A stretch of 64,000 nt of DNA from Intestinimonas butyriciproducens (lineage in GTDB: Bacteria; Bacillota; Clostridia; Oscillospirales; Butyricicoccaceae): contig NZ_JACJKW010000014.1 of the NCBI RefSeq assembly GCF_016901775.1, positions 1 through 64,000 of the forward strand. Direction: 5' to 3'. Shown here in pieces: positions 39,902 to 53,900 of this stretch. Position 1 is the first letter of the stretch; every line of letters begins with the position of its first letter. The notes below the pieces were generated by a model. The model searched no databases. It was not told the DNA's origin and was given only the letters and a program-made list of their open reading frames with translations. Both the position numbers and the translations under genes were made by a program.

Positions 39902-40161
39902 ATACCGTCAGCCTGCTTGTGGCGCTGGCCTGCATGGGCCTTGCGGCCTGGGTGCTGGAGTGGTACAGCTTTGTGCTGCTCCATCATCTGAGGGGGAGAC
40001 TACGGGTGGATATACATGTTTCCCTGGAAGGACTGACCCCCTGGGAGCAGAAACGGATGCTTCTGTGGGCCAAAAGGCTGTGTGCCCTGCGTTTTCCCGG
40101 GGCATGGAAGCAGGAAGAAGAAGGAGAGGAGGGAGTTTTCCCAGATGAAAGAGACAACTGA
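39880..40161 (+). CDS. Small membrane protein
   Basis: A 93-residue protein with one hydrophobic helix (about residues 8-36), a basic stretch (HHLRGRLRVD) and an acidic C-terminus (KQEEEGEEG). It overlaps the start of recD2 by 17 bases, which suggests translation coupling and a real gene. The start may be ATG at 39880, which abuts the GGGGGG run, or the in-frame GTG at 39886 with better spacing. No family recognised. Confidence 0.6.
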   Translation: MDVDCGFYTVSLLVALACMGLAAWVLEWYSFVLLHHLRGRLRVDIHVSLEGLTPWEQKRMLLWAKRLCALRFPGAWKQEEEGEEGVFPDERDN

Positions 40162-42382
40162 GCGGGAGCTGGAGAAGATCCAGGGTGTGGTGGATACCCT
40201 GATTTATAAGAATGACGACAGCGGCTGGGCGGTGGCCCGGGTGGATCTGGGCGTAGGGGAAGAGCTGGTGATTACCGGCGTCATGCCTTATCTGGGGGCA
40301 GGGGAGAGCATCGTCGCCTATGGCAACTATGTGACCCATCCGGAATACGGTCCTCAGTTTTCCGTTCTTTCCTATGAGCGGCTGCTGCCTTCCACTGCCC
40401 AGGGGATCTATGATTATCTGGCCTCCCGCACCGTCAAGGGCATCGGTCCCAAAACCGCCATGGCCATTGTGGAAAAATTCGGGGAGGACACCTTTGATGT
40501 GCTGGCCAGCCAGCCGGAGCTTCTGGAAACGGTGCGGGGCATCAGTCCCCGGAAGGCCCGGGAGATCCAACAGAATTTTCTTCAGCAAAACGCCATGCGG
40601 GCCCTTTTGCAGTTTTTCACCGAGAGCGGTCTGCCCATGTGGTGTGCCGCCGGGGTCTACAAGGTCTATGGGGCCTATGCAGAGCAGACTTTGCGGGAGG
40701 ACCCCTATCTTTTGTGCCAGGAGCGGTTTGGTCTGGATTTTGGCCAGGTGGACGAGGCCGCCCGGCACATGGGCATGGATCCTTTGAGCCCGGTGCGGCT
40801 GCGGGCCGCTGTGTTGTATGAACTCACCTTCAATCTGCAAAGCGGCCATTGCTTTATTCCTCGGAAAAAACTGCTGACGGCCACCGCATCCCTGTGCGGC
40901 GCAGGGGAAGAGGATGTGGAAGATCAGCTGGAGGAGCTGTTGCAGCGGCAGCAGGTGGTGGAAGAGGATATCCGGAGCCAGCCCATGGTCTATCTGGCCA
41001 CCCTGTTCCGCCAGGAGAACACCGTGGCCCGGGAGGTGGTGCGGCTGCTGAGCATGCACCTGGAAGCGCCGCGGAACCTGGAAAAGATGATCGCCCGCAC
41101 CGAGAAAGAACAGGGGATGACCTATGCGGAAAAGCAAAAGGAAGCCATGGGCCTGTGCTTCCACGGGGCCTTGTCCTTGATTACCGGCGGGCCGGGCACT
41201 GGTAAAACCACAGCGGTACAGGGGCTTTTGTCCCTGTTGGATCAGAACGGCCTGACGGTCTTTCTCTGTGCACCTACCGGCCGGGCGGCCAAAAAACTCA
41301 GCGAGGTCTGTCACCGGGAGGCCAAAACCCTGCACCGGATGCTGGAAGCGGCCTTTTCCCCGGAAGAAGGGGTTATGCGTTTCAAGCGGAACAAGGACAA
41401 CCCTCTGCCTGCTGATGTAATCGTGGTGGACGAGGCTTCTATGCTGGACATTTCCCTCACCGCCTCTTTGCTGGAGGCCATGAAACCCCATACCCGTCTG
41501 GTGCTCATCGGGGATGCCGATCAGCTGCCCCCGGTGTGGGCGGGCAGCGTCTTCTCCGATTTGCTGGCATGTGACTTTGTGCCCAAAGTCCACCTGACGG
41601 AGATTTTCCGCCAGGCTCAGAACAGCCAGATCGTCATGAACGCCCACCGGATCAACCGGGGGGAGATGCCGGAGCTCCGGCTTACCCAGGGGGATTTCTA
41701 TTTTTCCGCTGCCTCCACACCGGAACAGGCGGTGGAGACGGTGGCCAGCCTGGTTTCTTCCCGGATCCCCGGGCATTTTGGCATCGATCCGGAGAACATT
41801 CAGGTGGTCTGTCCCACCCGGCAGCAGATGTGCGGCACGGTCTCTCTCAACCGCATTCTGCAGCAGCGGCTCAATCCGCCGGGAGAGGGCAAGACAGAGG
41901 TGCGTCACGGCCCCTATGTGTTCCGTCTGGGGGATCGGGTGATGCAGGTGCGGAATAATTACGATATCCTGTGGCAGAGCGCCGCCACCGCCGAGGTAGG
42001 GGCCGGGGTGTTCAATGGAGATACCGGGATCATCACCTACATCGACCGTTCTGAGCGGGTGATGGTGGTGCGCTTTGATGATCGGGAAGCGGCCTATTCC
42101 TTTGATGATCTGTACCAGATGGAACCGGCCTATGCCATCACCGCCCACAAAGCCCAGGGCAGTGAATATGAGGCGGTGATCGTGCCGGTGTTCCAAGCTC
42201 CCGCCCGGCTGCTCAACCGCAGTATTCTTTATACCGCCGTCACCCGGGCCAAACGGCTGCTGGTGCTGGTGGGGCGGCAGAGTGTGGTGGAGCAGATGGT
42301 GGAGAGCAACCAGAAAAACCGCCGGTACAGCGCCCTCAAATACCGGCTGAGGAGCTATCATGAAGCCATGGGCCTTGTTTGA
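40145..42382 (+). CDS. recD2: RecD2-type SF1B DNA helicase
   Basis: A 745-residue 5'-3' helicase of the RecD2 (YrrC) group, which works without RecBC in Firmicutes. The N-terminal OB and helix-hairpin-helix regions (GIGPKTAMAIVEKFG near residue 100) precede the helicase core: Walker A GGPGTGKTT near residue 348, DEASMLD motif II, GDADQLPPV motif III, and C-terminal AITAHKAQGSEY and YTAVTRAK. It should act in replication fork or mismatch repair. Start at 40145 has GGAGGGAG upstream. Confidence 0.93.
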   Translation: MKETTERELEKIQGVVDTLIYKNDDSGWAVARVDLGVGEELVITGVMPYLGAGESIVAYGNYVTHPEYGPQFSVLSYERLLPSTAQGIYDYLASRTVKGIGPKTAMAIVEKFGEDTFDVLASQPELLETVRGISPRKAREIQQNFLQQNAMRALLQFFTESGLPMWCAAGVYKVYGAYAEQTLREDPYLLCQERFGLDFGQVDEAARHMGMDPLSPVRLRAAVLYELTFNLQSGHCFIPRKKLLTATASLCGAGEEDVEDQLEELLQRQQVVEEDIRSQPMVYLATLFRQENTVAREVVRLLSMHLEAPRNLEKMIARTEKEQGMTYAEKQKEAMGLCFHGALSLITGGPGTGKTTAVQGLLSLLDQNGLTVFLCAPTGRAAKKLSEVCHREAKTLHRMLEAAFSPEEGVMRFKRNKDNPLPADVIVVDEASMLDISLTASLLEAMKPHTRLVLIGDADQLPPVWAGSVFSDLLACDFVPKVHLTEIFRQAQNSQIVMNAHRINRGEMPELRLTQGDFYFSAASTPEQAVETVASLVSSRIPGHFGIDPENIQVVCPTRQQMCGTVSLNRILQQRLNPPGEGKTEVRHGPYVFRLGDRVMQVRNNYDILWQSAATAEVGAGVFNGDTGIITYIDRSERVMVVRFDDREAAYSFDDLYQMEPAYAITAHKAQGSEYEAVIVPVFQAPARLLNRSILYTAVTRAKRLLVLVGRQSVVEQMVESNQKNRRYSALKYRLRSYHEAMGLV

Positions 42383-43055
42383 TTGGCTGTTTCCGCCCCG
42401 GTGTGCTTTGTGCGGACGCTTTCTTTGGGGAAAAGAAAAGCAGGACCAGCTTTGTCCGGCTTGCAGCGGGCGGGAAAAGCTAAAAGAGAGCTGGAAAATG
42501 GGAAAGCTCCCTTTTGTGGCGGGATCGGTGTGCGTTTACCCTTATGAAGGGAGTGTGCGCTGGGGAGTGCACCGGTTCAAGTTCCGGGGCGCGGCCCGGA
42601 GCGGAGAAATATTTGGCGTCTTGCTGGCCCAGCGGGTACGGGAAACCGGCCTTTTGGAGCAGGTGGACCTGGTGTGCTATGTGCCCTGTCACAGGAAAAT
42701 CAAGCGGAAGCGGGGCTATGAGCAGGCCCAGAAAATTGCCAGGCCCCTGGCCGAAGAACTGGGACTTCCCCTGGAGGCTCTTCTGGAAAAGCGGCGGAAC
42801 ACAAGGCCCATGTACCGGCTGAAAGCGGCCCAGCGGCGGGCCAATGTGCTGGGGGCCTTTGCGGTGACGCCGGGGAAAGAGGCCCTTGTCCGCTCCCGGC
42901 GAGTGCTTGTGGTGGACGATGTGCTCACCACCGGCAGCACCTTGTCGGAATGCGCCCGGGTGCTGCGGGAGGCCGGGGCCCGGGAGGTATATGGGGCGGC
43001 GTTTGCCCGCACCTTTGCCAAAAGGCCGGGGGAGAAAACCGGGAAAGGGGTGTGA
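42360..43055 (+). CDS. comFC: ComF family phosphoribosyltransferase-like protein
   Basis: A 231-residue ComFC protein: an N-terminal zinc ribbon (CALCG and CPAC) and a C-terminal type I phosphoribosyltransferase fold with the PRPP loop VLVVDDVLTTGST. It takes part in DNA uptake during transformation in naturally competent bacteria, but is also widespread without known competence. It overlaps recD2 by 23 bases. Confidence 0.9.
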   Translation: MKPWALFDWLFPPRCALCGRFLWGKEKQDQLCPACSGREKLKESWKMGKLPFVAGSVCVYPYEGSVRWGVHRFKFRGAARSGEIFGVLLAQRVRETGLLEQVDLVCYVPCHRKIKRKRGYEQAQKIARPLAEELGLPLEALLEKRRNTRPMYRLKAAQRRANVLGAFAVTPGKEALVRSRRVLVVDDVLTTGSTLSECARVLREAGAREVYGAAFARTFAKRPGEKTGKGV

Positions 43056-43057
43056 AA

Positions 43058-43579
43058 ATGGAACTTTGTCTGGCTGGGATGGAAGATTTGGACCAAGTGG
43101 AGCGGATGTATCGGCGCATTGTGGCGGACATGGAGAAAAAGGGCCTTTTTATTTGGAACCAATATTATCCCGCAGAGGTGCTGGGGGAGGACATCGCTCA
43201 AAGGAGGCTTTATGTGTGCCGGGAGGGCGGGGCGATCTGGGGTGCCTTTGCCCTGACTGAGTGGGAGGAAGGGGAAGGGGACATCCGGTGGACGATCCCC
43301 GGGAAGGCTCTTTACCTGGACCGGCTGGGGGTGGAGCCCGCCCGGTCTGGAAAAGGAGTGGGAACCCAGGCGGTGCGGCAGGCCATGGCCCAAGCCGAAA
43401 AGCGGGGGGCGGAAGTTCTTCGGCTTTTCCTGGCGGAAGGCAACGAGCCGGCTTTCCGGCTGTATCAGAAACTGGGGTTTTGCCGGGCTTCGGGCATCTA
43501 TGAAGAGAAAATCGACCTTGGGCACACCCTTCGGCAATCCGGCTGGGAGATCCCATTGGCAGCCGGGATTCGGGAATAG
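43058..43579 (+). CDS. GNAT family N-acetyltransferase
   Basis: A 173-residue acetyltransferase with the acetyl-CoA loop region RSGKGVGTQAVRQAM and a C-terminal NEPAFRLYQKLGFCRAS helix typical of GNAT. Substrate unknown. ATG at 43058 lies 2 bases after the comFC stop; no strong ribosome site is visible, so translation is likely coupled. Confidence 0.85.
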   Translation: MELCLAGMEDLDQVERMYRRIVADMEKKGLFIWNQYYPAEVLGEDIAQRRLYVCREGGAIWGAFALTEWEEGEGDIRWTIPGKALYLDRLGVEPARSGKGVGTQAVRQAMAQAEKRGAEVLRLFLAEGNEPAFRLYQKLGFCRASGIYEEKIDLGHTLRQSGWEIPLAAGIRE

Positions 43580-43647
43580 CAAGAGGGACAGGCAATTTTC
43601 TCCCCTTCTTTTGGGCGTTTTTTCGACAGAGAAATCCAAACTATGTG

Positions 43648-43676
43648 TTGAAAACATGATTCCAGTTGGGTATAAT
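43648..43676 (+). promoter_or_regulatory. Promoter of mreB
   Basis: TTGAAA (43648-43653), 17 bases, perfect TATAAT (43671-43676). The leader of about 125 bases to 43808 holds no recognisable gene or riboswitch. Confidence 0.82.
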
Positions 43677-43808
43677 AAAAAGAGCTATGGAAAAAGAAAA
43701 CCAACCGTGGTTTTGTGTGAAGATTTGGAGAAATGGGCGCCCAGACCCCACCCGGCAGCGGGGACGGGCCCTGAAAGCAGGCAGCCGGAGAAATGGAGCG
43801 GGAAAGAT

Positions 43809-44831
43809 ATGTCAGCAGGCGATATCGGAATTGATCTGGGTACGGCTTCCGTACTGGTTTATGTAAAAGGCAAGGGCATTGTTTTGTGCGAGCCTTCTGT
43901 TGTGGCGGTGGACAAGTCCACCGGCAAGATTCTGGCCATCGGTGAGGATGCCCAGAAGATGCTGGGCCGTACCCCGGGCAACATCATCGCTGTGCGCCCT
44001 CTGCGGGACGGCGTCATCTCCGACTATGAAATGACGGAGAAAATGATCAAGGAGTTTATCCATAAGGTGCTGGGCTTCCGTCTGTTCAAGCCCAATGTGG
44101 TTATCTGTGTGCCTTCCATCATCACCGAAGTGGAAGAGCGTGCCGTCATCGATGCCGGCACCCAGGCCGGCGCCCGGAAGGTTTATCTCATCGAAGAGCC
44201 GGTGGCTGCTGCCATCGGCGCAGGGATCGAGATCTCCAAGCCCGACGGCAACATGATCGTTGATATCGGCGGCGGCACCACCGATGTGGCGGTCATTTCC
44301 CTGGGCGGTATTGTGGAAAGCACCTCCATCAAGGTGGCTGGCGATAAGTTTGACGATGCCATCGTCAAATATGTGCGCCGTAAACACAATGTGCTCATCG
44401 GCGAGCGTACGGCGGAAGAGCTGAAAATGACCATTGGCTGTGTCTATCCCCGGGAAGAGGAAGCAAGCATGGAGGTCAAGGGCCGCTGCCTGATGACCGG
44501 CCTGCCCCGGGTGTTTACCGTCACTTCCACCGAGCTGCTGGAGGCTTTTGAAGAGGTGTCCGCTAAGATCGTGGAAGCGGTACATTTTGTGCTGGAGCGC
44601 ACCGCTCCTGAGCTGGTGGGCGACATTGCCACAAACGGCATTGTCATGACCGGCGGCGGCAGCCTGATCTATGGTTTTGACAAGCTGATCGAGTCCAAGA
44701 CCGGTATTACCACACGGGTGGCCGACGATGCCATCTCCTGTGTGGCTCTGGGTACCGGCAAAACTCTGGATAATCTGTCGGTGATGCAGGACGGTACTAT
44801 GAACCTGTCCTGGCGGCGGCAGATGATGTAA
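43809..44831 (+). CDS. mreB: Actin-like cell-shape protein MreB/Mbl
   Basis: A 340-residue bacterial actin that guides lateral wall synthesis. Phosphate loops DIGIDLGTASVL and DIGGGTTDVAVI and the adenosine loop TGGGSLIYGFDKLI are intact. The beginning DIGIDLGTASVLVYVKGKGI resembles Bacillus Mbl more than MreB. No mreC or mreD follows, which also fits an Mbl-type copy. ATG at 43809 is preceded by GGAGCGGGAAAG. Confidence 0.93.
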   Translation: MSAGDIGIDLGTASVLVYVKGKGIVLCEPSVVAVDKSTGKILAIGEDAQKMLGRTPGNIIAVRPLRDGVISDYEMTEKMIKEFIHKVLGFRLFKPNVVICVPSIITEVEERAVIDAGTQAGARKVYLIEEPVAAAIGAGIEISKPDGNMIVDIGGGTTDVAVISLGGIVESTSIKVAGDKFDDAIVKYVRRKHNVLIGERTAEELKMTIGCVYPREEEASMEVKGRCLMTGLPRVFTVTSTELLEAFEEVSAKIVEAVHFVLERTAPELVGDIATNGIVMTGGGSLIYGFDKLIESKTGITTRVADDAISCVALGTGKTLDNLSVMQDGTMNLSWRRQMM

Positions 44832-44843
44832 GACAAAACGGCA

Positions 44844-44872
44844 CAAGGCCCGGTCCCTGGGAAGGGGCCGGG
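44844..44872 (+). repeat. Upstream copy of duplicated mreB terminator hairpin
   Basis: A 29-base sequence beginning CAAGGCCCGG that recurs exactly at 45054-45082. It folds as a GC-rich hairpin (CCCGGTCCC / GGGGCCGGG) but is followed by ATCAC, so it has no T-run. Confidence 0.85.
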
Positions 44873-45053
44873 ATCACACTGTGGACGAACCGATACAGGA
44901 AAAGGGTTGTTTGCCCTGATCCTCATCAATCTGCAAAAAGCTGCGACCTGTGCGTGGCTTTTTGCACCTATCAAGGGGCAAGTGTGCGCCGAAGGCGTGC
45001 ACACAGCCCCTTGCAAACTCTCGAAAAAGTGGCCGGGCCACTTTTTCGAAATG
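44873..45053 (+). mobile_element. Structured non-coding repeat element, copy A
   Basis: A 181-base non-coding insert between two copies of the mreB terminator hairpin. From about 44905 it aligns closely with copy B at 49001-49202. Hairpins, in order: GGG...CCC near 44904-44918; GCAAAAAGC / GCTTTTTGC (44932-44965); CAAGGGGC / GCCCCTTG with GTGTGC / GCACAC inside (44972-45013); TCGAAAAAGTGGC / GCCACTTTTTCGA (45021-45049). No transposase or other frame that looks coding. It may be a non-autonomous mobile element or a structured RNA. Confidence 0.75.
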
Positions 45054-45087
45054 CAAGGCCCGGTCCCTGGGAAGGGGCCGGGCTTTT
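45054..45087 (+). terminator. Downstream copy of mreB terminator, with T-run
   Basis: Exact repeat of 44844-44872, here followed by CTTTT, so this copy keeps the complete terminator form. Confidence 0.7.
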
Positions 45088-45114
45088 GACATAGGGCGAA
45101 AAGGAGAAATGGAT

Positions 45115-46155
45115 ATGTTGGCCTATACTTATGTGGAACAGGGCCGGTTTGCCTTTCTGGAAAAACCCCGGCCCCATGTGGAAGGGCCGGAGGATGTGGT
45201 GGTGCGTGTAACCTTGGCCAGCATCTGCACCAGCGATCTGCACATCAAGCATGGTTCGGTGCCTCGGGCGGTACCCGGAGTGACAGTGGGCCATGAAATG
45301 GTGGGCGTTGTGGAAGAAGTGGGGGAGAAGGTGCGGAAGTTTGCCCCCGGCGATCGGGTGGCCGTCAATGTGGAGACCTTCTGCGGGAAATGCTTTTTCT
45401 GCCGCCAGGGGTATGTGAACAACTGCACCGATCCCCAGGGAGGCTGGGCCTTGGGCTGCCGCATCGATGGCGGTCAGGGGGAATATGTGCGGGTGCCCTA
45501 TGGAGACCAGGGGCTGAGTCATATCCCTCAGGGGGTGACCGATGAGCAGGCCTTGCTGGCGGGAGATCTGCTGGCCACCGGCTATTGGGCCGCCGGTATC
45601 GCCGGGATCCAGCCGGGAGAGTCGGTGCTCATCATCGGTGCAGGCCCCACCGGGCTGTGCACGCTGCAATGTGTGCTGCTCTGTCAGCCAGGAGTGGTGA
45701 TGGTGTGTGAAAAAGACCCTCAGCGGCGCAAGTTTGTGGAAGAACACTATCCCGGGGTACTCACCGTGGCGCCGGAAGGGGCGGAGGAATTTGTGAAAAC
45801 TCATACACCCCATGGAGGCGCCGGGCGGGTGCTGGAAGTGGCCGGGAGCGCTGACAGCTTCCAGCTGGCCTGGAAATGCGCTCGACCCAATGGTGTGGTG
45901 ACGGTGGTGGCGCTGTATGACGCCCCCCAGGTGCTGCCTTTGCCGGAGATGTACGGAAAAAATCTCACATTCCAGACCGGTGGGGTGGACGGATGTCATG
46001 TGGATGACATTCTTCAGTTGATTGCAGAGGGCAAACTGGATCCCCGGCCGCTGATCACCCATACTTTTCCCTTGCGGGAAATCGAGAAGGCCTATGAAGT
46101 GTTTGAAAAAAGGGAAGACGGGGTCATTAAGGTGGCCATTCAAATGGAGGAATAG
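45115..46155 (+). CDS. Zinc-dependent medium-chain alcohol dehydrogenase
   Basis: A 346-residue MDR-family dehydrogenase. Catalytic zinc ligands are in ASICTSDLH and GHEMVG; the structural zinc cysteines are CGKCFFCRQGYVNNC; the NAD(P) loop is IIGAGPTGLC. Substrate unknown; the pattern is close to threonine/sorbitol dehydrogenase-like sets. ATG at 45115 is preferred to ATG 45109 because AAGGAG lies 8 bases upstream of it. It forms a pair with the SDR gene 2 bases later, which suggests two successive oxidation/reduction steps on one polyol or sugar acid. Confidence 0.88.
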   Translation: MLAYTYVEQGRFAFLEKPRPHVEGPEDVVVRVTLASICTSDLHIKHGSVPRAVPGVTVGHEMVGVVEEVGEKVRKFAPGDRVAVNVETFCGKCFFCRQGYVNNCTDPQGGWALGCRIDGGQGEYVRVPYGDQGLSHIPQGVTDEQALLAGDLLATGYWAAGIAGIQPGESVLIIGAGPTGLCTLQCVLLCQPGVVMVCEKDPQRRKFVEEHYPGVLTVAPEGAEEFVKTHTPHGGAGRVLEVAGSADSFQLAWKCARPNGVVTVVALYDAPQVLPLPEMYGKNLTFQTGGVDGCHVDDILQLIAEGKLDPRPLITHTFPLREIEKAYEVFEKREDGVIKVAIQMEE

Positions 46156-46157
46156 CT

Positions 46158-46862
46158 ATGTTTCAGGACAAAGTGGCCGTGGTCACCGGCGGCGCCCAGG
46201 GCATCGGCCGGTGCATTTGTGAGGAGTTTGCAAAACAGGGGGCCAAGGTCTGCACCATCGATCTGCTGGAAAACGACTTTTTCCAGGGGGATGTGGGGGA
46301 AAAGGAAGATCTGGAGCAGTTCGCTCAAAAGGTCATTCAGACCTATGGCCGGGTGGATTTTCTGGTGAACAATGCAAAACCCCTGTTTCTGGGGATCGAT
46401 ACCTGCACTTGGGAGCAATTCAACCAGGCTCTTCAGGTGGGAGTGGCGGCGCCTTTTTATCTGACCCAGCTGCTGCTTCCCTATTTGGGGAAGGGAGCCA
46501 GCATCGTCAATATCTCTTCCAGCCGGGACCGGATGAGTCAGCCTTTCACCGAAAGCTATACCGCCGCCAAAGGGGGAATCGCCGCCCTCACCCATGCTCT
46601 GGCGGTGAGCCTGCGGGACAGAGCACGGGTCAACTCCATTTCTCCCGGCTGGATCGACACCACCGGTTCCCGGTTCTCCGGGGCCGACGAGAGCCAGCAC
46701 CCTGTGGGGCGTGTGGGAGCGTCTCAGGATATCGCCCAGATGGTGCTCTTCCTTTGCTCGGACAAGGCCGGATTCATCACAGGGGAAAATATCTGCATCG
46801 ATGGCGGCATGACCCATCAGATGATTTATCATGACGACTGCGGCTGGACTTTCCATGGTTGA
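46158..46862 (+). CDS. Short-chain dehydrogenase/reductase
   Basis: A 234-residue classical SDR. The cofactor loop TGGAQGIG, the catalytic Ser in NISSS and the Tyr-Lys pair of YTAAK are intact. The usual NNAG is NNAK here. C-terminal ITGENICIDGGMT is typical. Paired with the zinc dehydrogenase. Its last 8 bases overlap the helicase gene. Confidence 0.88.
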   Translation: MFQDKVAVVTGGAQGIGRCICEEFAKQGAKVCTIDLLENDFFQGDVGEKEDLEQFAQKVIQTYGRVDFLVNNAKPLFLGIDTCTWEQFNQALQVGVAAPFYLTQLLLPYLGKGASIVNISSSRDRMSQPFTESYTAAKGGIAALTHALAVSLRDRARVNSISPGWIDTTGSRFSGADESQHPVGRVGASQDIAQMVLFLCSDKAGFITGENICIDGGMTHQMIYHDDCGWTFHG

Positions 46863-48978
46863 TATTCAGGGATTTCAAAGCCGGTTTGGTCTTTCTCTCA
46901 ATCCCCAACAGCAGGCGGCGGTGGAAAGTGTGGAAGGACCAGTGCTGCTGTTGGCCGTGCCGGGAAGCGGCAAGACCACTGTACTGGTCAGCCGGGTGGG
47001 GTATATGGTCTATGAAAAGCAGATTCCGCCGGAGCAGATCCTCACGGTCACCTATACCGTCTCCGCCGCCCGGGATATGAAAGCCCGTTTTTGCCGTACT
47101 TTTGGGGAAGAGATGGGAAACCGGCTGGAATTTCGCACCATCAACGGTCTGTGCAGCCGGGTGATCCGTGCCTATGAACGGATGCTTGGGCGGCAGGCTT
47201 TTTCCCTGCTGGAGGACACCGGGGCCCAGGGGGCGCTTTTGGGAGAACTGTGCCGCAGGCAGCAGAAGGAATTTGTACCGGAGAGCACCGTCAAGGCTCT
47301 TCAGACCGCCATCACTTATGCCAAAAATCAGATACTCACCCGGGAGGAACTGGAAACGGTGGAGGTGGAAGGGGTGGACTTTCCCGCCCTGTTTCAGGCC
47401 TATGACCAGACTCTGCGCCAGCGCCAGCAAATGGATTACGATGATCAGATGGTCTATGCCCGTCAGATCCTGCTGCGCTATCCGGAGGTTTTGGCCCGTT
47501 TTCAGGAGAGATACCGGTATCTTTCGGTGGATGAAGCCCAGGATACCTCCAAGATTCAGCATGCCATTTTGGATCTTCTGGCCGGGAAAGCGAAAAATAT
47601 TTTTCTGGTGGGGGATGAAGATCAGAGCATTTACGGCTTCCGGGCAGCTTATCCCCAGGCTTTGACCCAGTTTTCCAAACGATATCAAGGAGCCAAGGTG
47701 CTTTATTTGGAGAAAAACTATCGTTCCACCCCACAGATCGTGGAGACCGCCCAAAACTTTATCCAGAAGAACCGGGACCGGTATCCCAAACACATGGAGG
47801 CGGTACGCCCGGCGGGACTGGCGGTGGAGAGCATTTCTCTTTCCAACCGCAAGGCCCAATATTCCTATCTGATGCAGGTGGCCCAGGACTGCCAGGAGGA
47901 AACGGCGGTGCTGTATCGGGACAATGAAAGTGCCTTGCCACTGATCGACCTGCTGGCCCGGAAGGGGATCCCTTACCGGTGCCGCCAGGTGGACAGCGCC
48001 TTTTTCACCAGCCGGGTGGTGCGGGATATCAGCAATATCATCCGCTTTGCCCAGGACCCTCAATCCTCTGCTTTGTTTTTGGACATCTATTATAAATTGG
48101 GGGCAGGCATCCGGAAAAAGGATGCCGAGGAAGCGGCAGCGCAAAAGGGAAAGGGCACCATTTTGGAGCGTCTGGCGGAAAATCCCCAGGCCTCGGCCTT
48201 TACCCGGCGACAGTGCCGGGCTCTGCAAACCCATCTGGATCACATGCTGCTGGAGCCAGGAGACAAAGCGGTTTACCGGATTGTCCGGTTTATGGGATAT
48301 GGGGACTACTTGCAGCGTCAGGGTATGGAAGGGGGAAAGGCTCAGATTCTGGAATCCCTGGGGGCCATGGAACAGAATCCCATGGATCTGCTGCGGCGCC
48401 TGGGAGAGCTGGAGAGTCTGGTGCGGCAGGGGGGAGAGCCGGATTGCCCCTTTGTGCTTTCCACCATTCATTCCAGCAAGGGACTGGAGTATGACCGGGT
48501 GATCCTGATGGATGTGGCTGACGGCATTTTCCCCCGGGCAGGCCAGCCGGAGCCGGGGGACGAAGAAGCCTGGAAAACCTGGGAAGAGGAACGGCGGCTT
48601 TTTTATGTGGCGATGACCCGGGCCAAAAACCGGCTCCAGGTGTTTCGTTTTCGCCATCCGGAGATGGAGTCCACATTCAGCCAGGAGATCTTTCCGGTAA
48701 AGAAGCCTGCCCGGGCTCCCGCGCTCCGGCCGACGGTGAGCAAAAAGCCGGGGACACTGGTCCAGCGTCCCGCAGCTCTGGAAAAAAAGCTTCCGGTTTT
48801 GCCTGGGGCAGAGCAATATTATGTGAAAGGGGCGGCGTTGAGCCACCGGCGCTTTGGGCCGGGGGTCATTGCAGACCGCCAGGGAGACCTGGTCACCGTG
48901 GCCTTTCAGGACGGAAGCCAGCGGACATTTTCTTTGGCCGCCACTTTGGGGCTGGGACAATTTGCACCAGAAAAATAA
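46855..48978 (+). CDS. UvrD/PcrA-like SF1A DNA helicase
   Basis: A 707-residue 3'-5' helicase. It has the Q-motif LNPQQQAAV, Walker A AVPGSGKTT (about residues 34-42), motif II VDEAQDTS, GDEDQSIYGFR, HSSKGLEYD and a VAMTRAK motif VI. The C-terminus (KGAALSHRRFGPGVI...VTVAFQDG) resembles the Tudor-like RNA-polymerase-binding domain of PcrA/UvrD. Motif Ia (YTVSAARDMKARF) departs from the PcrA FTNKAAREM form, so it may be a paralogue and not PcrA itself. ATG at 46855 overlaps the SDR gene by 8 bases. Confidence 0.88.
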   Translation: MVDIQGFQSRFGLSLNPQQQAAVESVEGPVLLLAVPGSGKTTVLVSRVGYMVYEKQIPPEQILTVTYTVSAARDMKARFCRTFGEEMGNRLEFRTINGLCSRVIRAYERMLGRQAFSLLEDTGAQGALLGELCRRQQKEFVPESTVKALQTAITYAKNQILTREELETVEVEGVDFPALFQAYDQTLRQRQQMDYDDQMVYARQILLRYPEVLARFQERYRYLSVDEAQDTSKIQHAILDLLAGKAKNIFLVGDEDQSIYGFRAAYPQALTQFSKRYQGAKVLYLEKNYRSTPQIVETAQNFIQKNRDRYPKHMEAVRPAGLAVESISLSNRKAQYSYLMQVAQDCQEETAVLYRDNESALPLIDLLARKGIPYRCRQVDSAFFTSRVVRDISNIIRFAQDPQSSALFLDIYYKLGAGIRKKDAEEAAAQKGKGTILERLAENPQASAFTRRQCRALQTHLDHMLLEPGDKAVYRIVRFMGYGDYLQRQGMEGGKAQILESLGAMEQNPMDLLRRLGELESLVRQGGEPDCPFVLSTIHSSKGLEYDRVILMDVADGIFPRAGQPEPGDEEAWKTWEEERRLFYVAMTRAKNRLQVFRFRHPEMESTFSQEIFPVKKPARAPALRPTVSKKPGTLVQRPAALEKKLPVLPGAEQYYVKGAALSHRRFGPGVIADRQGDLVTVAFQDGSQRTFSLAATLGLGQFAPEK

Positions 48979-49000
48979 AAAAACGCCTGAAAAGGCGTTT
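48978..49000 (+). repeat. Upstream copy of duplicated helicase-gene terminator hairpin
   Basis: AAAAAACGCCTGAAAAGGCG plus TTT; the same 23 bases recur at 49203-49225. Stem AACGCC / GGCGTT, but followed by CAGTC, so the T-run is cut short. Confidence 0.85.
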
Positions 49001-49202
49001 CAGTCTTTGAAAAATGGCTCTGGATGGAGGGGCGTTTGCCCTTTCTCTTATCAATCTGCAAAAAGCCGCGACCTGTGCGTGGCTTTTTGCACCTCTCAAG
49101 GGGCAAGTGTGGCCGATTGGCCGATGAAAGCAGCCAATCGGCTGCATGCAGACCCTTGCAAAAACTCGAAAAAGTGGCCTTTGCCACTTTTTCGAAATGT
49201 TC
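49001..49202 (+). mobile_element. Structured non-coding repeat element, copy B
   Basis: A 202-base non-coding insert that aligns with copy A from about 49030 on. Hairpins in order: GGGC-GTTT-GCCC (49030-49041); GCAAAAAGCC / GGCTTTTTGC (49058-49090); CAAGGG / CCCTTG enclosing a 10-bp stem GCCGATTGGC / GCCAATCGGC (49097-49160); TCGAAAAAGTGGC / GCCACTTTTTCGA (49167-49196). The middle arm differs in sequence from copy A but still pairs. Bounded by direct copies of the local terminator hairpin. Confidence 0.75.
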
Positions 49203-49231
49203 AAAAAACGCCTGAAAAGGCGTTTTTTATT
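49203..49231. terminator. Downstream copy of terminator, with full T-run
   Basis: Repeat of 48978-49000 followed by TTTTTTATTTT; A-run on the left makes it usable for the convergent minus-strand gene as well. Confidence 0.85.
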
Positions 49232-49703
49232 TTGTCATGATGGCTGTCACGGAATCCACCCACTGGGAAGAAACAGGGGTGACCGGAAGGGAAGAGGTTT
49301 CCTGGAAGCTGAGGGTGAAATCACCGAAAAAGTTCTGCACCCACAGACCGCCGTCCGGGAAAATGCAGTGGATCTCCCACCGAATATCGCCGGTCTGGAG
49401 CGGATGAGTGCGGGTACCTTGGCTGGGGATCAGGCCCCACAGACTGCGGCGGAACTCGGCCTGCTTTAACAAAGACAGGATCTGCTCAAATTCTTTATTT
49501 TCCGGTGTAAAGGTTTGGTGATAGGTCACGCTTTCCCGGGGACTTTCTTTGTAGTAATCCCCTTGCAGGGTGATGCTGGCACACTGGGACAGATCCAGGC
49601 CGGGAAAAATCTTTGGGAGGGGAAGGCTGCGCCGGTAAAACAAGGCCAGAGCAATGCAAAGCACCAGAACCAAAAGAACAGGTGTTTTCTTGCGGAGCTT
49701 CAT
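49227..49703 (-). CDS. Small membrane-anchored exported protein
   Basis: A 158-residue protein with an N-terminal signal-anchor (MKLRKKTPVLLVLVLCIALA) and a beta-rich extracytoplasmic remainder containing many aromatic residues. No cysteine lipobox is seen. A very strong ribosome site AAAGGAGGTG stands 6 bases before the ATG. No family recognised. It stands alone between a promoter shared back to back with sbcD and the terminator next to copy B of the repeat. Confidence 0.75.
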   Translation of the reverse strand: MKLRKKTPVLLVLVLCIALALFYRRSLPLPKIFPGLDLSQCASITLQGDYYKESPRESVTYHQTFTPENKEFEQILSLLKQAEFRRSLWGLIPSQGTRTHPLQTGDIRWEIHCIFPDGGLWVQNFFGDFTLSFQETSSLPVTPVSSQWVDSVTAIMTK

Positions 49704-49727
49704 TGTGCCACCTCCTTTTATGCTGTT

Positions 49728-49755
49728 ATGATATCATATCAGTGCGGAAAAGCAA
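49728..49755 (-). promoter_or_regulatory. Promoter of small exported protein gene
   Basis: Minus strand TTGCTT (49750-49755), 16 bases, TATCAT (49728-49733). Confidence 0.5.
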
Positions 49756-49767
49756 AAGAAAACATGG

Positions 49768-49796
49768 TTGCAGCTTTTGGGGGCTGCCGATATAAT
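49768..49796 (+). promoter_or_regulatory. Promoter of sbcDC
   Basis: TTGCAG (49768-49773), 17 bases, perfect TATAAT (49791-49796). Confidence 0.82.
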
Positions 49797-49836
49797 AAAA
49801 ACAGCAGCATTTCAGCCAAAAGAGGGAGGAAAACAG

Positions 49837-50985
49837 ATGAAATGGATCCATTTATCCGATCTGCATCTGGGAAAGCGGGTCAATGGCTTTTCTATGGTGG
49901 AGGATCAGAATTATATTTTGAAAGAGATTCTGGAGATCATTCGCCGGGAAGAACCTCAGGGGGTGCTCATTGCCGGGGATGTGTACGACAAAGCAGTGCC
50001 TTCGGCGGAAGCAGTGGGAATGCTGGATGATTTTCTGGTGTCCCTGTCCAGGATGGGGCCTGAGGTTTTCCTCATCAGCGGCAACCACGATTCTCCCGAG
50101 CGGCTGGCTTTTGGCGGACGGCTGATGGAGCAGAGCGGCGTTCATCTGGCGCCGGTGTATGATGGAAAGCCCTGCCGCTTTACCCTTCAGGATACCCATG
50201 GGCCGGTGGATGTTTTCCTGCTGCCCTTTCTGAAGCCTGCCCATGTGCGCCGTTTTTTCCCGGAGGAAACCATCGAAAGCTATACCGATGCACTTCGGGT
50301 AGCCATCGGCCATCTGGGAGTGGAGGAAGGAAGGCGGAATGTGCTGGTGACCCACCAGTTTGTCACCGGGGCCGCCCGCTGTGAATCGGAGGAACTGTCG
50401 GTGGGGGGCAGTGACAATGTGGATGCCTCGGTATTTGAACTCTTTGACTATGTGGCCCTGGGGCATATTCACGGCCCTCAGCAGGTGGGAAAACCTACCA
50501 TTCGCTATTGCGGCACTCCCTTGAAATACTCCTTTTCGGAGGCCCATCATGAAAAATCGGTGACTGTGGTGGAGATGGAGGAAAAAGGGAATGTATCCAT
50601 CCGCACCATTCCGCTCGGGCCTTTGCGTGAGGTGCGGGAGATCCGGGGAAGTTATGAAGAAGTGACCCTGCGGGATTTCTACAAGGGAAAGGATTTCCGG
50701 GAAGATTACCTGCATATCATTCTCACCGATGAAGAGGATGTGCCGGACGGGGCGGCCAAGCTGCGGCTCATTTACCCCAATTTGATGAAGCTCAGCTATG
50801 ACAACCGCCGCACCCAGAACCAGGCTCAGTGGGAGGAGATGGGGCCCCAGGAGAAGAAAAGCCCCTTGGCCATGCTGGAAGAATTTTATGAAAAACAAAA
50901 CGGCCAGCCCATGCAGGAGACCCAGCGGTCTTTTGCGCAGGAGCTGCTGGAAGCAATCAGGGAGGGTGAATCATGCGACCGCTGA
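49837..50985 (+). CDS. sbcD: Exonuclease subunit SbcD (Mre11-like)
   Basis: A 382-residue metallophosphoesterase nuclease subunit. The metal motifs are HLSDLHLGKR, AGDVYDKAVPS, SGNHDSPERL, VTHQFV and GHIHGPQ. With SbcC it cleaves DNA hairpins and protein-blocked ends. Start at 49837 has GAGGGAGG upstream. It overlaps sbcC by 13 bases, as usual for the pair. Confidence 0.95.
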   Translation: MKWIHLSDLHLGKRVNGFSMVEDQNYILKEILEIIRREEPQGVLIAGDVYDKAVPSAEAVGMLDDFLVSLSRMGPEVFLISGNHDSPERLAFGGRLMEQSGVHLAPVYDGKPCRFTLQDTHGPVDVFLLPFLKPAHVRRFFPEETIESYTDALRVAIGHLGVEEGRRNVLVTHQFVTGAARCESEELSVGGSDNVDASVFELFDYVALGHIHGPQQVGKPTIRYCGTPLKYSFSEAHHEKSVTVVEMEEKGNVSIRTIPLGPLREVREIRGSYEEVTLRDFYKGKDFREDYLHIILTDEEDVPDGAAKLRLIYPNLMKLSYDNRRTQNQAQWEEMGPQEKKSPLAMLEEFYEKQNGQPMQETQRSFAQELLEAIREGESCDR

Positions 50986-53900
50986 AATTGACCATGTCGG
51001 CCTTTGGCCCCTATGCAGAGGAAACGGTGGTAGAGCTCGGAAAGCTGGGAGAAGAAGGACTCTACCTGATCACCGGGGATACCGGGGCCGGAAAAACCAC
51101 CTTGTTTGATGCCATTGCCTATGCATTGTATGGAGAACCCAGCGGACAGAACCGGGATTCTTCCATGTTCCGCTCCCAGTATGCACATCCGGAGACACCC
51201 ACCTTTGTGGAGCTGGAATTTGCCTATCGAGGGAAAAAATATACTTTGCGCCGCAATCCGGAATACCAGCGCCCGGCCAAACGGGGAGAAGGGATGACCA
51301 CCCAGAAGGCGGAAGGGGAGCTGCACATGCCCGATGGGCGAGTAATCACCCGGCCACGGGAGATCACCGCGGCCATCACCCAGATCATCGGCCTGGACAG
51401 AAACCAGTTTTCCCAGATCGCCATGATCGCCCAGGGGGATTTTCTCAAGCTTCTTCTGGCCGACACCAAAAGCCGTCAGGAAATATTCCGGGAAATATTC
51501 CAGACCCGATATTATATGGCGTTCCAGGAAAAAATCAAGGCGCTGACCCTTCAGGAGGGAAAGGAATGTGAGCAGGCCCGGCAAAGTATGCGCCAGTATG
51601 TAGAGGGCATCCGGTGGGAAGAAGATGACCCGTTGGCCGATTTGGCCCAGCAGGCCCGGCAGAATCAGCTGCCGCTGGAAGAGACGGTGGATGTGCTGGA
51701 ACGGCTTTCTTCTCAGGACCAGCGGAGGGAAGGACAGTTGACCCTTCAGCTGAAAGAGCTGGAAGAGCAGCTGGCCCAGGTCAATGCCCAGCTGGGCAAG
51801 GCAGAAGAGCGGGAAAAGGCAAAAAAACAGCTGGAAGAAACCCAAAAGCAGCTGGAAGAACAGCGTCCCCAGGCAGAGCAGGCTCAAAAGCGGCTGGAAG
51901 AGCAGCAGAATCTGGCGCCCCAGCGGCAGGAGGTCATCGGTCAGCTGAAGGCGCTGGAGGGGGAACTGCCGGCCTATCAGCAGCTGGAAAAGGGAAAGAA
52001 CCAGCTGACGGCGTTGGAAGAGCAGACGCAGGCACTGGAAGCCCAGCAAGAGAGAATCAGGCAGCGGCAGGAAGCAGTGAGCCGTCAGGCGGAAGAGCTG
52101 GAAGGCCAGGCAGCAGCTTTGCAGGAATCGGCTGCTCTGCGGGAAAAGGCTCTGGGGCAGCAGCGGGAAGCACAGGCTTGCCAGGATCTCTGGCAGGCAC
52201 TGTGGCAGGACAGGAAAACATGGGAAGATCATGTCCGGCAAATCAACGAGAGCAAAGGGAAAGAGAAAAAACTGGAAGAGCAGCGCCTGGCAGAGAGCAA
52301 AGCCCGGGAAGCGCTGGAGCAAAAGCAGCAGGAGCTTTCCCGGCGTTATCAGGAAGAGGCTATGCTGGAAAGCTTGCAGGAACGGCTGCTTTCACAGCAG
52401 GCCCAGGCCCGGCAGGAGGAAGAAAGCCTTGCGCAGTTGGAAGAGCTGGTGCGGGATTGGGAGCAGGCGGAGAGCAGGCTGAAACAGACCCAGCAGGCAT
52501 ACCGGGAGGCCTGGGATGTGCAGGTTCGGCAGGATACCCAATACCAGGAGAAAAACAGGGCATTTCTGGCCGAACAGGCCGGGCTTCTGGCTCAGGAGCT
52601 GGAAGAGGGAAAACCCTGTCCGGTGTGCGGTGCTCTCCAGCATCCGGCTCCGGCCCGTTTGTCTCCCCAGGCTCCTACCAAAGAAGAGGTGGAACAGGCC
52701 AAAGCCGCACTGGAAAAGGCCCAGCAGCAGGCTGCACAGAAAAGTCTGGAAGCGGGGCAATGGAAGAGCCTCCTTCAGGAACGGCAGCGGCAGTTGGAAA
52801 CCGCCCTTCAGCAGCGGGATGAAAACGCTTCACCGGACCAGGCCCGGGAAAAGCTGAAAGACTGGAAAGAAGGATCCCGGCAGCAGCAGGAGGTGCTTCG
52901 GCAGCAAGAGCAGCAGCTTATCAGGCGGCAGCAGGAACGCCTGGAAATCAAGGGGCAGCTGGAAGAGCTGGAAGCGCAGCACCAGGCCAGTTCCGCAGGG
53001 GAAAAAGAGCGGGAAGAGGAGCTGCACCGGCTCCAGCTGGAGTGCAAAGGTCTGGAAGGACAAAAGCAGCAGCTGGAACGGGATCTGAACCGGCGTCTGG
53101 AAGCACAGGGAGAGACCTGTTCCCTGATGGATGCCGGGGATGTGATCTGCCGGCGTTTGCAGGAGGAAAAAGAGAGCCTTTGCCGGCTGGAACAAGTGGT
53201 GAAACTGCGGGAAGAAGAGATCCGGAAGAAAGAGATGCTGGAAAAGCAAAGAGAGGACAGCATCCGGCAGAGGGATCAGCTGATCGGGGAAAAGGAAGAA
53301 GTGGGCGCCCAGCTGGCCCAGGCCCAGGCCCAATGGCAGGGGGTGGCCGGACAGGTGTCTGCATTGGCCGGACAGCTGCGTTTTCCTGATGTACGCCAGG
53401 CCCAGGCCCACCATGCTGATTTGAGCCGGCAAAAAGAAAAAATGGAGCAGGCCCTGCTTTGTGCAGAGCAGAACAGCCGTCAGCAGCAGACCCGACTGAC
53501 TCAGCTGGAGGCAGCTTTCCGGCAGCTGACGGCCCTGCTCAGTCAGGGGAGCGATACAGACCGGAATGCTCTGGAAGAAAAAAGCCAGGCATTGACCCGG
53601 CAGCGGCAGGAGAAACTGGACCGTCAGCAGCAGATCCGCACCCGGATGCAGACCAATGAAACCATACGGGAACAGGTTGTGGAGAAATCCCGGGATCTGG
53701 CCCGGCGGGAAGAGCGGTACCGCTGGATGGCCGCTCTGTCCGATACGGTCAACGGCTCCCTGAAGGGGAAGGAAAAGGTGATGCTGGAGACCTATGTGCA
53801 GATGACCTTTTTTGATCAGATCATCCGGCGGGCCAACCGTCGTTTTCTGGTGATGTCCGGCAATCAATATGAGCTGCGGCGCAAGGCTGGCGGAGAAAAT

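Follow-up and report, generated by a model that had tools for sequence, protein, structure and literature searches.

Short non-coding elements in the window, the whole 64,000-nt stretch of Intestinimonas butyriciproducens DNA analyzed here, are in our judgment quite probably MITEs with the ends of one IS1182-family clade, which take a palindrome, usually a transcription terminator, as their target and duplicate it whole by way of a cruciform. On both sides of most copies of the MITE there is a whole hairpin whose sequence is specific to the site. In full-length IS copies of the clade the palindrome is duplicated in its entirety, the length of the duplication varies with that of the palindrome, its center falls on the dyad, and a single hairpin was present before insertion. 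This clade targets palindromes, in most cases intrinsic terminators.

The two copies in the window, A and B (Table 1), were recognized in a first-pass annotation, which claimed that each is flanked by a direct repeat consisting of the local terminator hairpin, that these repeats differ between the two sites and so belong to the target and not to the element, and that a T-run follows the downstream duplicate and is missing after the upstream one. Each of these claims is borne out: both pairs of repeats are perfect, they sit at the edges of the element, the hairpin sequence is new at each site genome-wide, and the T-run is placed as described. The end of the MITE in copy A, CACACTGTGGACG..., is a decayed form of CAGACTGTCGAAA. 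In copy B the first base of the upstream duplicate is also the last base of the stop codon of a helicase-like gene, and the copy appears to lie between convergent genes (ORF 46831-48978 on the forward strand and ORF 49227-49703 on the reverse strand). From the names used in that annotation and from known motifs, we take the gene beside copy A to be mreB and the one beside copy B to encode a helicase.

Table 1. Features of MITE copies A and B and of their flanking hairpins (window coordinates)
Feature	Coordinates	Strand	Remarks
Copy A, upstream duplicate of the terminator hairpin	44844..44872	+	29 nt; no T-run after it; identical to 45054-45082; folds as a hairpin
Copy A, MITE	44873..45053	+	181 nt, the spacing between the direct repeats; matches copy B; in multiple alignment
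Copy A, conserved internal hairpin	44932..44966	+	loop region GCGACCTGTGCG
Copy A, right-end hairpin	45021..45049	+	TCGAAAAAGTGG...CCACTTTTTCGA; belongs to the terminal repeat
Copy A, downstream hairpin duplicate	45054..45082	+	followed by CTTTTG
Copy B, upstream duplicate of the terminator hairpin	48978..49000	+	23 nt; identical to 49203-49225; folds as a hairpin
Copy B, MITE	49001..49202	+	202 nt, the spacing between the direct repeats; query of the genome search; in multiple alignment
Copy B, conserved internal hairpin	49057..49091	+	loop region GCGACCTGTGCG
Copy B, right-end hairpin	49166..49195	+	belongs to the terminal repeat
Copy B, downstream hairpin duplicate	49203..49225	+	followed by the T-run TTTTTTATTTT

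The host genome is a draft assembly of 2.58 Mb in 74 contigs. A search of it with copy B yielded 94 candidates, of which 40 were scored and all 40 proved to be places of the element, and an end-motif search with its follow-up gave 11 further copies; the resulting lower bound for the genome is 50 distinct copies, each about 170-250 nt long. Two hits at contig ends (L034 and L039) look like one copy over an assembly break and were excluded from the flank counts, in which 49 copies were analyzed. A flank-to-flank repeat scoring at least 13 is present in 33 of the 49, as against 2 of 2,352 mismatched flank pairs, and the flank repeats are not due to chance. Thirty of the 33 copies have as their repeat a hairpin of 22-37 nt whose sequence is particular to the site; the remaining three have a weak hairpin (L018) or partial repeats only (L023, L037). 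In 30 of the 33 the center of the repeat is no more than 3 nt away from the dyad. The 16 copies under the threshold include three (L020, L022, L051) with diverged hairpins on both sides, as judged by eye, and about ten with a hairpin at one side only, usually the right of the element. Whole-hairpin duplication at copies throughout the genome, as predicted from A and B, is accordingly the rule for the majority, and the expectation that no copy would lack hairpin duplicates fails for this minority.

The initial proposal also held that the element inserts into terminators and that in both copies it has the same orientation relative to the terminated gene. The hairpins are indeed terminator-like and stand whole on both sides, but the target is better called a palindrome, of which terminators are the commonest kind. 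Constant orientation is seen in copies A and B and not in the rest of the genome: at the 33 repeat sites, read in the orientation of the element and with a run defined as 5 in 6 bases (by which copy A itself counts as having the A-run only), a T-run lies downstream only at 4, an A-run upstream only at 9, both at 17 and neither at 3. The constant orientation of A and B is a coincidence. When the ORFs beside the 49 copies were picked by a crude procedure, 18 settings came out as convergent, 25 as tandem, 5 as divergent and one as an edge; these counts support no conclusion, the method having erred in choosing a wrong-strand ORF to the right of copy A.

The element is short, non-coding (its short overlapping ORFs were not taken as genes) and present in many copies, and it has imperfect terminal inverted repeats (CAGACTGTCGAAAAAC / GAGCGTGTCGAAAAAG) and a target-site duplication at 33 of the 49 copies, all of which are marks of a MITE. 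An autonomous partner, a further such mark, was found in another genus of the family and not in the same genome. Other bacterial MITEs (PMC10969869) resemble it in being short and non-coding, with inverted-repeat ends and many intergenic copies; unlike here, duplication of a whole terminator hairpin as the target is not described in the portion of that paper available to us. The partner, L059, is an IS of 1571 bp with ends CAGTCTGTCGAAAAAGTCC and CAGCCTGTCGAGAAACC and a 492-aa transposase, and it is flanked on both sides by a perfect 30-nt hairpin repeat. By model score (NF033551, 403.5 bits against a cut-off of 270) it is a member of the IS1182 family (NF033551; PF13751, PF05598, PF01609), from whose IS the MITE differs in having no gene. 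The left end of the MITE, CAGACTGTCGAAAAACC, agrees with the right end of the L059 IS at 15 of 17 bases, and its right end, which read inward is GAGCGTGTCGAAAAAG, agrees with the left end of the IS at 13 of 16. In its ends and its whole-hairpin duplication the MITE thus has the character of an IS1182 member.

In the host genome no IS1182 transposase was detected with PF13751 at E≤0.001 or with the L059 protein at E≤1e-30. Across the family PF13751 matches 15 of 87 genomes, and at the other IS1182-type loci among these matches no hairpin repeat like that of L059 was seen. Because the host yielded no IS1182 transposase, the link of the MITE to this family rests on its ends and its target behavior; and since the L059 IS lies in another genus and its protein is unmatched in the host, the MITE counts as an orphan within this draft. 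It looks like a non-autonomous element with the ends of one IS1182-family clade, and it was probably moved by an IS1182 transposase of that clade now missing from this assembly. Viral contigs contained no relatives of the L059 protein and no exact match to the core pattern of the MITE.

Other identities considered for the element were given up. The long duplications of IS1202-type elements had been an early lead; the relative proved to be IS1182, and a literature search found no support for the lead. Readings as a group IIC intron or as a REP-IS200 element are disfavored by the inverted repeats at the ends and by the match to an IS1182 element. Group IIC introns insert beside intrinsic terminators by an RNA-mediated route and share this preference with the present element; to our knowledge they cause no hairpin duplication, and in contrast to them there are here terminal inverted repeats and a DDE-transposase relative. 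In ISfinder the duplications of IS1182 elements reportedly range from 0 to 60 bp. Some members of the family target palindromes (Siguier et al. 2015, as cited in PMC4923244 and PMC5678879), and IS1182 is among ten families reported, in the section of PMC9208149 concerned, to be overrepresented between convergent genes, which fits the present picture.

Relatives of the L059 protein turned up in 33 of the 394 genomes from the order (E≤1e-30), and an Enterococcus query recovered relatives in 20 of 398 genomes of the phylum (E≤1e-60); relatives were also recovered in 370 plasmid records. After the exclusion of 9 rows cut by contig ends, a first set of IS copies held 60 uncut rows, several of them gene fragments. 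A whole-hairpin repeat, 20-47 nt in length, is present at 27 distinct loci of this set (L172 and L111 count as a single place, as do L071 and L119; L130, which reached a score of at least 13 through a repeat away from the element ends, was not counted). At 26 of these 27 loci the center of the duplication lies within 0.5 nt of the dyad, the remaining one being 1.5 nt off, and the length of the duplication correlates with that of the contiguous palindrome (Pearson r=0.84). A further set of 13, one of which (L205) is cut, added 8 of 12 uncut copies with a whole-hairpin repeat (17-27 nt, all 8 centered); the four without it are L211-L214. Pooled, this makes 35 full IS1182 copies, from 19 genomes and 3 plasmids, with duplications of 17-47 bp, 34 of which are centered within half a base of the dyad. 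The targets mostly begin with A and end with T.

The following course of events would yield such duplications. The palindrome would be extruded as a cruciform, at whose four-way junction the 5' feet of the two hairpins would lie side by side whatever the length of the arms. Each foot would receive a 3' end of the transposon, joined to it by the DDE transposase, and repair of the gaps would then leave a hairpin on both sides. Because the T- and A-tracts mostly lie outside the duplicated part, preserved termination is plausible: the far copy would retain a complete terminator and the insertion would be nearly neutral. A related proposal, which we regard as unlikely, is that insertion takes place at a hairpin of single-stranded DNA, for instance at a replication fork, and not at a double-stranded cruciform. 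Palindromes fold in single strands too, and in one IS copy (L111, genome G098) the loop is inverted in one of the two target duplicates relative to the other (GAAGATTC versus GAATCTTC), a difference that fold-back repair could produce; we infer that the same inversion is to be expected from a resolved cruciform or hairpin end. Against this proposal, we reason that a single-stranded target alone does not offer a DDE transposase the two opposite strands that it uses.

The cruciform model treats the element as a transposon, and it might be asked whether it is mainly a structured RNA or a regulatory repeat selected at gene ends, its mobility being incidental. The internal hairpin is strongly conserved, and in a 32-row alignment of the MITE 9 of the 37 predicted pairs, which fall into a few hairpins, have two-sided changes. 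These changes are no proof of RNA function, because they are largely one subfamily difference (12-13 of the 32 rows) and could have come about by arm-to-arm conversion of palindromes. The copies moreover have matching ends and target duplications, and Rfam gave seven matches for positions 40000-52000 of the window, none of them at the gathering score. A MITE query matches 21 of the 87 genomes of the family, the host included, some through the internal hairpin alone; of 11 loci examined among these relatives, two in other genera have a flanking hairpin repeat (L191, 28 nt; L199, 25 nt) and nine do not. Seven loci (L193-L198 and L201), from as many genomes of another genus (g2), have a hairpin nearly identical to the internal one of the MITE beside an infB-like gene, at locus positions of about 1501-1536 (971-1006 in L195), with no flanking hairpin repeats. 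This hairpin looks to be at one orthologous place, which speaks for a function as RNA, and it is perhaps a long-kept, exapted copy. On balance the RNA reading is improbable.

A long and roughly fixed staggered cut, together with a preference for terminators by sequence or supercoiling, would duplicate hairpins by accident. Many of the duplications are indeed of 20-30 nt, the ordinary size of a terminator hairpin, and the A-first, T-last tendency of the targets hints at a sequence preference. In the MITE alone the length of the repeat does not correlate with the palindrome span (Spearman 0.08, p 0.65) when measured in a way that runs through mismatches and was judged too permissive; by the same measure 12 IS gave a correlation of 0.57 (p 0.05), and a contiguous-pair measure was adopted in its place, for the IS only. 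The range of the IS duplications, their correlation with palindrome length and their centering on the dyad, as given above, argue against a fixed stagger and leave this explanation very improbable.

That the MITE merely entered between hairpins already doubled, or that the hairpins arose later, without any target duplication, is scarcely credible: there is no empty MITE site to set against it and the hairpins of the two sides differ in five copies (L020, L022, L029, L032, L051), but at many sites the two are perfectly identical with a sequence new to each, and two IS copies of the same clade have natural empty sites with a single hairpin. These two are Enterococcus copies, whose flanks were joined around one hairpin and compared with plasmid records. 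The joined sequence of L136 (126 nt) matches 329 records, with 80% or more of the query covered in 307, and that of L137 (113 nt) matches 101, with such coverage in 85; 15 and 10 rows of the respective lists were viewed. For the IS, the empty site has one hairpin and the filled site two. The first-pass annotation had predicted one-hairpin empty sites for the MITE itself, and there the prediction met with no true empty site, the sole comparison being a congener (G001). Homologous flanks were found in G001 for 15 MITE copies, and of the seven inspected gene ends four (those of copy A, L002, L006 and L028) have one hairpin of another sequence and three (L015, L035, L044) have none that could be recognized. 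A scan with the helicase-like protein, with its own species left out, gave 20 loci of at most 64% identity and no empty site of the MITE.

Related IS also show other outcomes at their targets, the classes of which were assigned by eye from the flanks. Eight copies (L103, L106, L110, L114, L115, L138, L162, L166) have hairpins at both ends, but different ones. In L103, from genome G271, the left hairpin is H1 and the right one H2; in the copy on plasmid pTVN of Thermocaproicibacter melissae (L135, L215; NZ_CP101828.1) the order is H2, then H1, when the circular record is followed through its start. Such reciprocal hairpins are the product expected from recombination of two copies with matching hairpins; two more G271 copies, L202 and L203, do have matching hairpins. 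Recombination was shown to fit only one of the eight cases; unlike hairpins at the two ends had at first seemed to speak against the model. We infer that G271 is the same organism as the host of pTVN, and the sequences look as though recombination between two IS copies had taken the circle out of the chromosome or brought it in. The plasmid also carries a type III-A cas10 gene.

In five further copies (L119, L129, L130, L178, L190) the IS lies inside a palindrome and the duplication is confined to the loop or to a few central bases. In genome G818 one copy (L212) looks to be of this loop or center type and another (L211) does not, and L213 in G247 is partly so; no target structure was seen at L056, L058, L121, L123, L128 and L214. 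In a 45-row transposase tree (from which L168 dropped out, with L120 and L184 left out) the 24 whole-hairpin, 8 two-hairpin and 3 undecided rows form one 35-row group, with support of 88/79, not starred, and a root placed for drawing only; five loop-type rows fall outside it.

IS1272 and TnSha1 of staphylococci are comparable as IS1182-family elements that target stem-loops, often terminators, in both orientations and with no sequence specificity. According to the portions of PMC4923244 and PMC5678879 available to us, from whose description we know IS1272, it deletes or replaces the stem-loop with no target duplication, whereas here the whole stem-loop stands on both sides, so that replacement of the IS1272 type does not apply. 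In the text to their Fig. 13, Wan et al. 2017 (PMC5678879) put forward the hypothesis that the whole stem-loop is duplicated when the ends join at the 5' feet of a cruciform, and the loop alone when they join at the loop. These pathways (b and c) were drawn there with no example; the present data, from natural elements with such products, agree with what they predict. We consider it somewhat more probable than its opposite that in this clade the duplication is set by the secondary structure of the target and not by transpososome geometry, that the transposase recognizes a four-way junction, with joining at the 5' feet of its hairpins, and that sister lineages use the loop and IS1272 perhaps the 3' feet. 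If so, the IS1182 family would yield whole-hairpin duplication, loop or center duplication and hairpin deletion, its lineages differing in the joining position on the hairpin; all three cruciform pathways of Wan et al. 2017 would be realized, and IS1182 transposases would be natural cruciform-directed integrases.

Among the literature matches listed, that hypothesis apart, there is no description of whole-hairpin duplication by IS1182 elements, of its exact centering on the dyad or of an IS1182 MITE in terminators; ISfinder and TnPedia lay outside the search, and priority is uncertain. The length of the target duplication is set by the enzyme in most DNA transposons. Duplications of 17-47 bp that are set by the palindrome and centered on its dyad would be a signature, in natural genomes, of the recognition of folded target DNA, and they offer a possible read-out of which palindromes fold in bacterial chromosomes. 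Insertion of this kind can place an element at the ends of genes and probably leave termination intact, and doubled terminators in annotation may mark such insertions.

Two MITE copies of the host genome depart from the usual form. One (L033:1466-1651) has at its left end GAGCGTGTCGAAAAAC, which is of the right-end type of terminal repeat. The other (L040:1018-1271) is longer, at 254 nt, the middle hairpin having been replaced by an unrelated longer palindromic insert.
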